Shown piece by piece: positions 541-6,535 of a stretch of 16,591 nucleotides of DNA. Source of the stretch: DAOVGU01 sp030637775 [NCBI: bacterium]. Lineage in GTDB: Bacteria; Ratteibacteria; UBA8468. The stretch lies in NCBI GenBank assembly GCA_030637775.1, contig DAOWFY010000148.1:1-16591 (forward strand), in the 5' to 3' direction. Made by a program: the position numbers and the translations under genes. Below the pieces are notes generated by a model that was given only the letters and a program-made list of their open reading frames with translations, searched no databases and was not told the DNA's origin. How positions within the stretch are numbered: the stretch's first letter is position 1; every line of letters starts with the position of its first letter.

Positions 541-589
541 CCCTCACTTAAATCCTTCCCCCACGAGTGGGGAGGGAAAAGGGGAGGGG
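541..589. repeat. Palindromic repeat element, copy A
   Basis: A C-rich half followed by a G-rich half. The core hairpin pairs CCCCAC (559-564) with GTGGGG (567-572), and the ends pair CCCTC (541-545) with GAGGG (584-588). The left end (CCCTCACTTAAATCC) resembles the reverse complement of the right end of the larger palindrome inside ribD (6044-6060, ending TTAATCC on that strand). The two therefore look like members of one dispersed repeat family. Here it lies in the 5' UTR just before the ribosome-binding site of the next gene. Confidence 0.6.
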
Positions 590-611
590 CAAAAAGAAAG
601 GAGGAAAGAAT

Positions 612-5187: not shown

Positions 5188-5193
5188 ATAACA

Positions 5194-5318
5194 TCCTTTT
5201 CGGGGCAGGGTGCAATTCCCAATCGGTGGTAAAAGCCCACCAGCCCTTGACACAAGTGTCAAGGGCAGATCTGGTGTGACTCCAGGGCCGACAGTAAAGT
5301 CTGGACGAAAGAAAAGGA
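5194..5318 (+). promoter_or_regulatory. FMN riboswitch (RFN element) controlling the rib operon
   Basis: All hallmark blocks of the FMN aptamer occur in order: GGGGCAGGGTGCAATTCCC, a CGGTGG/AAAGCCCACC arm, CAGATCTGGTGTGACTCCAG, GGGCCGACAGTAAAGTCTGG. The closing P1 stem pairs TCCTTTTC (5194-5201) with GAAAAGGA (5311-5318). FMN binding stabilises P1. With the intrinsic terminator directly downstream, this should be a transcriptional OFF switch. The variable hairpin is an unusually perfect palindrome (5243-5266, arms GCCCTTGACAC/GTGTCAAGGGC). Confidence 0.96.
5243..5266 (+). repeat. Perfect palindrome forming the variable arm of the FMN riboswitch
   Basis: Arm GCCCTTGACAC (5243-5253) is followed by two bases and its exact complement (5256-5266). 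In RNA about nine to ten pairs can form, with a small loop. This position is known to vary among RFN elements. The perfect symmetry, and the two further palindromes in the adjacent ribD gene, suggest an inserted repeat rather than a drifted stem. No second copy is seen here. Confidence 0.6.
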
Positions 5319-5326
5319 GAAGTTAT

Positions 5327-5356
5327 AATCCCGGGAAGGACCCGGGATTTTTCTTT
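5327..5356 (+). terminator. Intrinsic terminator (attenuator) of the FMN riboswitch
   Basis: A GC-rich stem pairs AATCCCGGG (5327-5335) with CCCGGGATT (5341-5349), with loop AAGGA and then a T-rich tail (5350-5356). It lies 9 bases after the aptamer and 19 bases before the ribD start codon. An 8-base stretch at the aptamer's 3' end (AAAGAAAA, 5308-5315) is exactly complementary to 5349-5356. It might take part in the alternative, FMN-free fold. I could not identify a clear strand that pairs with the terminator's 5' arm. Confidence 0.88.
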
Positions 5357-5374: not shown

Positions 5375-6535
5375 GTGAATGAGAGAGAAAAATACCTAAA
5401 ATTAGCGATCAAATTAGCAAAGAAAGGGTTAGGCTATACCAATCCCAATCCTTTAGTGGGGGCGGTAATTGTTAAAAATGGAAATATCGTGGGAAAAGGA
5501 TATCATCAAGGATATGGTCTTCCACATGCAGAAATAAATGCTCTCAGAAAAGCAAAGGAAAGAGCAAAAGGAGCAACACTTTATCTGAACCTGGAGCCTT
5601 GCTGCTTTTTTGGTAAAACTCCCCCCTGCACCACCTCAATCATTTCTGCAGGAATCAAGGAGGTCGTTACTTCCTTAAAGGACCCCAATCCAAAAGTCTC
5701 CGGAAGAGGGATTAGCCAGTTAAAAAAAGCTGGCATCAGGGTAGAAATAGGAATTTTAAAGAAGGAGGCAAGAAAACTTAATGAAGCCTATCTTAAGTAT
5801 ATTACAACCAAAAAACCCTTTGTCACCTTGAAAGCAGCAATGAGCCTTGATGGAAAGATTGCAACTAAAACCGGAGAATCAAAATGGATAACCTCAAAAG
5901 TAGCAAGAAATTTCAGCCATCAATTAAGACTTCTCTATGATGGGATTCTGGTAGGAATAGGGACGGTGCTTAAGGATAATCCCTATTTAAATTACACCCC
6001 CACCTACCGGGGGTTCCACTCCCCTCGAGGGAGTGTATCCCCCGGATTAAGGAGAGGGGGAAAGAGATTTACCAAGGTTATTGTCGATAGTTCTGCCAAG
6101 ATTCCCCTTGACGCCAACCTCCTTAAAAAATCGAAGACCTGCCTGCCGGACAGGCAGGTGATTTTAGCTACGACAAAAATGGCTTCAATAGATAAATTAA
6201 AAAAACTAAATGAAAAAGGCATAGAGATCCTAATTTTAGGAGAAAATAGAAAGGTTGATCTTCTCAGGTTAATGGAGGAATTGGGGAAACGGGAACTTGC
6301 AAATCTTCTCATTGAAGGAGGAGGAGAGATCAATGAGGCTGCTTTGAGACTGAGAATCGTGGATAAGGTTTGCTTCTTTGTTTCTCCCAAAATTATTGGA
6401 GGAAGATATGCAAAGACGCCGGTGGAAGGAGAGGGGATCGAGCATTTAAATGAGGCGATTTTACTGAAAGAACTTACGTGCGAACCGATTGGTGAAGATT
6501 TTTTAGTGGAGGGATATGTTTACAGGACTGATTGA
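5375..6535 (+). CDS. ribD: Bifunctional riboflavin deaminase/reductase RibD
   Basis: The product is 386 residues from GTG 5375, the first plausible in-frame start after the terminator. A longer open frame from 5210 only reads through the riboswitch. The ribosome-binding site is weak (AGAGAG, 5359-5364). The N-terminal deaminase domain has the zinc site HAE (51-53) and PCC...PPC (Cys76, Cys85). The C-terminal reductase domain has SLDGKIAT, DNPYL, KVIVDSS and LLIEGGGE. It converts the GTP cyclohydrolase product to the ribitylamino-uracil phosphate intermediate using NADPH. Oddities: residues about 207-230 and 255-261 are encoded by palindromic DNA and look like insertions. Without them the length falls to about 355, normal for the family. 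The usual His after EPC(S/C) is Phe (EPCCFFGKTPPC). The gene overlaps ribE by 20 bases. Confidence 0.95.
   Translation: MNEREKYLKLAIKLAKKGLGYTNPNPLVGAVIVKNGNIVGKGYHQGYGLPHAEINALRKAKERAKGATLYLNLEPCCFFGKTPPCTTSIISAGIKEVVTSLKDPNPKVSGRGISQLKKAGIRVEIGILKKEARKLNEAYLKYITTKKPFVTLKAAMSLDGKIATKTGESKWITSKVARNFSHQLRLLYDGILVGIGTVLKDNPYLNYTPTYRGFHSPRGSVSPGLRRGGKRFTKVIVDSSAKIPLDANLLKKSKTCLPDRQVILATTKMASIDKLKKLNEKGIEILILGENRKVDLLRLMEELGKRELANLLIEGGGEINEAALRLRIVDKVCFFVSPKIIGGRYAKTPVEGEGIEHLNEAILLKELTCEPIGEDFLVEGYVYRTD
5995..6061 (+). repeat. Palindromic repeat element, copy B, inserted in frame in ribD
   Basis: A near-perfect nested palindrome. CACTCCC (6017-6023) pairs with GGGAGTG (6029-6035). CCGGGGG (6007-6013) pairs with CCCCCGG (6039-6045). 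The outer CCCCC (5997-6001) pairs with GGGGG (6056-6060). It encodes a Pro/Arg/Gly/Ser-rich stretch of RibD between DNPYLN and KVIVDSS, where other RibD proteins have a short loop. Its right end, reverse-complemented, resembles the left end of the 541-589 element. Confidence 0.75.
6137..6159 (+). repeat. 23-base palindrome encoding CLPDRQ inside ribD
   Basis: Perfect 9-base arms ACCTGCCTG (6137-6145) and CAGGCAGGT (6151-6159) flank CCGGA. It encodes TCLPDRQV between LLKKSK and ILATTK, adding about seven residues to RibD. From memory, this CCTGCCTGCCGG...CAGG motif recurs across genomes of uncultivated bacteria, often within genes. There is one copy in this window. Confidence 0.7.

Follow-up and report, generated by a model that had tools for sequence, protein, structure and literature searches.

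An in-frame palindrome in ribD is a copy of a dispersed Ratteibacteria repeat with variable cores

Palindromic repeats lying in frame in many unrelated genes have been described in Rickettsia, where the Rickettsia palindromic elements (RPEs) are about 150 bp long and contain an ORF encoding a conserved peptide (available part of PMC10969869). The REPs that end in GTAG or CGTC are shorter (20-40 bp) and mostly intergenic, and are also found within ORFs in Opitutus terrae, R. conorii and others, including DNA replication and repair genes, sometimes with two per gene (available part of PMC3733652). Inverted repeats embedded in coding sequence are reported from the mitochondria of Nematomorpha (excerpts of PMC6649704), and quasipalindrome template switching is described as a process that makes the arms of inverted repeats alike, also in coding sequence (excerpts of PMC8604942, PMC8794818 and PMC7202029).

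The stretch of DNA analysed here (the window, 16,591 nt) carries a palindrome within ribD that we found to be one copy of a repeat which is dispersed in a Ratteibacteria family and is apparently non-autonomous. An earlier note on this DNA had likened the palindrome to the RPEs, and as far as the available text on RPEs goes the likeness holds, with a palindromic repeat in frame in unrelated genes in both cases (here 66 of 117 copies in ORFs of at least 120 aa). Unlike the RPEs as described there, the Ratteibacteria repeat is 54-78 nt long, uses all six frames, has a variable core and occurs in another phylum. By likeness of description it works like an RPE, but it lacks the single conserved peptide given for that family. 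With the intragenic GTAG/CGTC REPs, in the excerpts available, it shares the location of palindromes inside ORFs, also of replication and repair genes, sometimes two per gene, but the repeat (F1 hereafter) is longer and is without the GTAG/CGTC tag and a flanking Y1 (RAYT) transposase. The likeness to the Nematomorpha repeats is again one of description, from a source available in part, and those inverted repeats in coding sequence are mitochondrial. In the literature searched, which covered few subscription journals, we found no report of palindromic inserts in Ratteibacteria and none of cores that differ at one and the same site, the latter being the least familiar feature of the repeat.

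The host gene occupies positions 5378..6535 of the forward strand, matches Pfam RibD_C and dCMP_cyt_deam_1, and most of its product can be aligned with B. subtilis RibG; judging by alignment, its start is probably the GTG at 5378. The deaminase His-Ala-Glu and Cys residues are invariant columns of a 19-sequence alignment, and the closest named relatives of the protein are from 'Candidatus Ratteibacteria'. An FMN riboswitch (RF00050) lies ahead of the gene at 5192-5320 and is followed by a terminator-like hairpin at 5327-5349; the start at 5210 that the mechanical ORF list gives falls within the riboswitch. The ORFs downstream, read by eye, are other riboflavin genes. No second full-length RibD match was found in the genome of the window (G000; 1.40 Mb in 177 contigs, 83.5% complete), and the two other matches of that search were translations of the repeat itself.

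The ribD copy is of the long-left/long-right form of F1 and lies at 5992..6060 on the forward strand, as indicated by a covariance-model match, the alignment of copies and the blastn copies in the genome. These are model boundaries (1503-1571 of locus L001), close to the 5995-6061 of the earlier note, which had rightly seen that the palindrome is in frame: a 447-aa stop-to-stop frame is open across it. Its palindromic core (CCGGGGG ... CCCCCGG) is at 6007..6045 on the same strand, and ribD of G001, a genome of the same genus, has an element at the same place that shares the left arm but not the core. The RNA fold of 5985-6070 has an energy of -41.1 kcal/mol (z -3.71), equalled by none of 200 shuffles, while the DNA fold of the palindrome (z -2.99) is equalled by one of 200. 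A plain hairpin scan of the window gave three hairpins against none to three in ten shuffles and did not include the ribD element, so that the remarkable feature is the repeat family and not the hairpin taken by itself. With the self-match included, blastn found 27 matches to the ribD copy in G000, and 38 to a short-core copy.

In the protein, the insert sits between DNPYLNY and KVIVDSS, where it had been placed before, but the proposed addition of about 24 residues was an overestimate: the loop has 26 residues against 14 in the two nearest element-free relatives, a net gain of only about 12 because part of the older loop is gone. In G002 and G003, genomes of the same family, the loop is short (NYYPPGNFKKKIKR in G002) where the RibD of the window has NYTPTYRGFHSPRGSVSPGLRRGGKR, and it is short at the same place in the more distant RibDs of the alignment. 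The alignment with relatives thus contains element-free RibDs that lack these residues, and no homologue carrying the residues without the palindrome was seen. An AlphaFold2 model built with the 19 sequences has a mean pLDDT of 85.8 and compares with B. subtilis RibG (4g3m_A) at TM 0.85/0.90; its core is of high confidence, in agreement with the enzyme core having been preserved. The pLDDT falls below 50 at residues 210-226, within the insert, and averages 59 in the block holding a second insert (see below), but since low pLDDT also reflects the missing homologues there, it is at most a weak hint of disorder. Both inserts are predicted by the model to be loops between secondary-structure elements. 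The extended surface loop claimed earlier is therefore retained as a predicted loop, with its surface position suggested solely by the low model confidence at that place. The effect of the insert on RibD is probably close to neutral.

Two further palindromes are present in the window. The smaller (ACCTGCCTGCCGGACAGGCAGGT; 6137..6159, forward strand) is a clean 21-nt in-frame insertion in ribD that is missing at the same place in G001 and adds TCLPDRQ to the protein, residues found in none of the 17 other RibD rows (14 distinct genomes, three rows being duplicates). It had no match in 200 shuffles of the window, and similar sites with up to three mismatches occur in the genome: three more sites in G000 match it with 1 to 3 mismatches, and all three are crossed by long open frames on one strand or the other, judged by the frames alone. 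A looser copy with three mismatches (L052; G000:C47:806-826) immediately precedes what looks by eye like an IF-2 motif. The other palindrome is a hairpin at 541..590 on the forward strand, in the leader of a small gene (~609-848), recognised by its sequence and fold and by a core type that recurs in other copies. It has an F2 core without the F1 left end, and its core (TTCCCCCACGAGTGGGGAGGG) is close to those within other copies of the genome, so the related element that the earlier note had placed at 541-589 is upheld.

The search for further copies that the earlier note had suggested revealed a genome-wide family. A covariance model built from ten short copies gave, with both strands counted, 51 matches in G000, 83 in G001, 18 in G002 and at least 94 in G003; many copies are present in all four genomes of the family, and 24 of 61 genomes have a match at E 0.01. 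We examined 117 copies (32 in G000, 40 in G001, 7 in G002 and 38 in G003), those from G001-G003 being the best-scoring among the matches listed; the total may be 116, because L227 and L228 are identical sequences at contig ends and possibly one copy, which would also suggest that the two contigs join there. Contigs also begin or end at or near L048, L153 and L195. Some copies within one genome are identical or nearly so (L213-L217 and L219 in G003; L315-L318 in G013), as if spread recently. In the distant genomes G013, G052 and G034, six of the 23 related copies, again the best-scoring listed, are in an ORF of at least 120 aa, and none, when read by hand, has 50 aa on both sides.

The repeat combines conserved ends (TTACACCCCCACCTATCTCC ... 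GGATTGAGGAGAGGGGG) with a palindromic core that varies. The F1 consensus of 54 nt starts with TTACACCCCC and ends with GAGAGGGGG, and its arms pair imperfectly (CCCCC with GGGGG), giving terminal inverted repeats like those of a MITE. Long and short left halves are combined with long and short right halves in a mosaic fashion, all four combinations (LL, LS, SL and SS) being found, and the forms of 54, 63, 72 and 78 nt are all multiples of three. The 78-nt forms are produced by the cores CTGCTTCG..., TCCCGCC... and CCCATCCACCGGATGGG..., and one core type occurs in several copies across a genome. Nine matches to the core CTGCTTCG were found, of which the seven with 0-1 mismatch are all central in an F1-type element and the two with three mismatches sit in a different palindrome; a free-standing core was not seen among them. 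Two copies, L010 and L048 (G000:C29 and G000:C65), hold a longer nested insert inside the element, and the one in C29 keeps the frame of an ORF with a GcvT domain.

The 66 in-ORF copies were counted with 45 nt to spare on each side of the copy, and in 52 of the 117 the frame extends for 50 aa or more to either side; L017 belongs to the 66 and not to the 52, its insert preceding the likely protein start. Pfam-matched ORFs (E 1e-5 in some scans, 1e-8 in others) host 44 of the 52, a match marking the ORF as a real gene without implying domains on both sides of the insert. The hosts of L175 and L185, which fell outside the Pfam scan, are orthologues of Pfam-matched genes, and six copies have no match (L157, two copies in L167, L170, L189, and L229, scanned as L040). 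The hosts, among them ribD, recJ, polA, priA, topA, alaS, pheT, carB, ispG and lon, are often essential. In G000 they include RibD, OEP, RecJ (two copies), a glycosyltransferase, EtfA, GcvT, DNA polymerase I, PriA, alanyl-tRNA synthetase, an aminotransferase, a type II/IV secretion ATPase and topoisomerase I; in G001, DNA polymerase I (at two other sites), carbamoyl-phosphate synthase, a Mur ligase, a class I tRNA synthetase, PheT and MoeA; and in G003, GcpE (IspG), Lon, a class I tRNA synthetase with a valyl-type C-terminus and BtuR/CobO. For 18 G000 genes the orthologous sequences can be aligned across the site or next to it, and element-free orthologues were found for ribD (G002, G003), polA (G002), priA and the pyrK-like gene (G001-G003), the secretion ATPase (G002, G003) and recJ (G001), which means that insertion has taken place at several sites.

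By frame, the in-ORF copies number 31, 13 and 6 on one strand and 5, 8 and 3 on the other. Their length is a multiple of three in 52 of 66 cases against 27 of the 51 other copies (Fisher p 0.005, with approximate model boundaries). Among the copies outside ORFs, 21 have same-strand ORFs on both sides, and in eight of these pairs both ORFs are Pfam-matched, the other 13 being unclassified; none of the eight pairs represents the halves of one gene, and retention within genes therefore appears to be limited to in-frame copies. The possibility that the element is built stop-free was rejected, the short and the long consensus each being open in three of six frames, which is no more than in Markov-random sequence of the same composition.

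At fourteen G000 sites an orthologue from G001 can be aligned across the site. Elements of F1/F2 type (types assigned by eye) are present in both genomes at seven of them, namely ribD, OEP, the glycosyltransferase, the M28-like gene, the LLQPL protein, topA and the spermine-synthase-like gene; the aminotransferase loop has a more divergent palindrome in G001, AlaRS and Wzy have an unrelated one, and four sites (recJ twice, priA and pyrK-like) have no element there. The Wzy-loop palindrome of the sister species begins with GTAG, and a similar Pro-rich insert was observed in the polA loop of G004 (loci of these loop palindromes and the polA insert: L251, L295, L296 and L264). Of the seven shared sites, only the M28-like gene has the same core type in both genomes and five have different types, while topA has one hairpin more in G000 than in G001. 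Since core or hairpin number differs at six of the seven, the cores seem to be exchanged in place. Some loops hold unrelated palindromes in sister species, as AlaRS and Wzy do; a few of the shared sites could thus reflect repeated hits of one loop, and independent insertion into the same tolerant loop is an alternative to which we give some weight while considering it unlikely. Against it, both OEP junctions are identical to the base between G000 and G001. In the spermine-synthase-like gene, too, the difference is confined to the core, and the hairpin next to it, the spacer and the junction downstream all match. These two patterns are the marks expected of template switching or of short-homology conversion, the mechanism that we infer. 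In the OEP copy of G001 (L175) the right arm is the reverse complement of the left, which fits quasipalindrome template switching as the available excerpts describe it and is the single clear case of arm copying within a gene; only three of the 117 copies pass a strict cut for arm homogenisation, two of them identical, at contig ends and perhaps one. Unlike that local mutation process, the repeat places one core type in several copies of a genome. The 12-nt left arm is identical between species in eight of the nine comparable pairs (of ten), against agreement of 0.40 to 0.91 at fourfold sites of the same genes, a likeness that pure neutral decay would not predict and for which we propose conversion from other copies.

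The remaining alternatives concern function and artefact. The very stable fold of the transcribed strand speaks for a hairpin that acts at the RNA level in ribD mRNA, affecting its stability or its elongation, for instance. We regard such a role as quite improbable, since copies occur in both orientations in many unrelated genes, covariation over 49 copies is slight (any double change in three of 14 pairs; covariation term -0.27 kcal/mol), an FMN riboswitch for riboflavin control is already present upstream, and relatives manage without the hairpin. The term domesticated, used earlier in the sense of a gained function, is not upheld, as neutral tolerance explains the data equally well. True domestication, with the inserted peptides co-opted and now serving their proteins, could draw on the persistence of sites and arms between genera, but all six frames are used, so that the peptides differ; one site can hold different cores, and with them different residues, in sister species; and relatives exist without the insert. 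We consider it improbable. That the inserts are assembly errors might be suspected from fragmented bins and the contigs ending at copies, but the same sites recur in separately assembled genomes (ribD, OEP, topA and others), and this explanation is hardly credible.

The ribD segment is thus a copy of a dispersed repeat, and we consider it likely that this repeat is retained in frame in genes and has its core rewritten in place, with a nearly neutral effect on RibD. The repeat is most likely selfish or neutral DNA, which persists inside genes only where it keeps the frame and falls in a loop that tolerates changes of length. Copies lie within and between genes; the surviving genic ones keep the frame, presumably through selection, in loops whose length varies among relatives as well, and they would be translated as a loose Pro/Arg/Gly-rich insert. 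Once placed, an element persists on the time scale of genera to families and its core is meanwhile rewritten, for which polymerase template switching or short-homology gene conversion between copies would be the simplest mechanism. An origin from RAYT genes or REPtrons was rejected, since Y1_Tnp genes are present with no element beside them: none of the 11 Y1_Tnp loci in four genomes (G003 excluded, the genomes being incomplete) is flanked by a copy. No target-site duplication was seen in the filled and empty pairs, in which the host loops have diverged or lost bases. More tentatively, and with somewhat less than even confidence, we suggest a system of two levels, in which the conserved outer repeat is a long-lived frame and small cores are moved or copied between such frames genome-wide, giving the forms of 54 to 78 nt and rewriting loops of essential enzymes over family-level time.

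With the Ratteibacteria repeat, the Rickettsia case has an independent counterpart in another phylum, among uncultured bacteria. Sister species offer filled, empty and core-swapped states of the same sites, with which one can test by what route palindromic mini-elements come into coding DNA and change there, and whether the insert peptides are neutral loops or raw material for proteins. Annotators of these genomes should be aware that inserts rich in Pro, Arg and Gly, such as HPHLSPPPLRGR, derive from the repeat.
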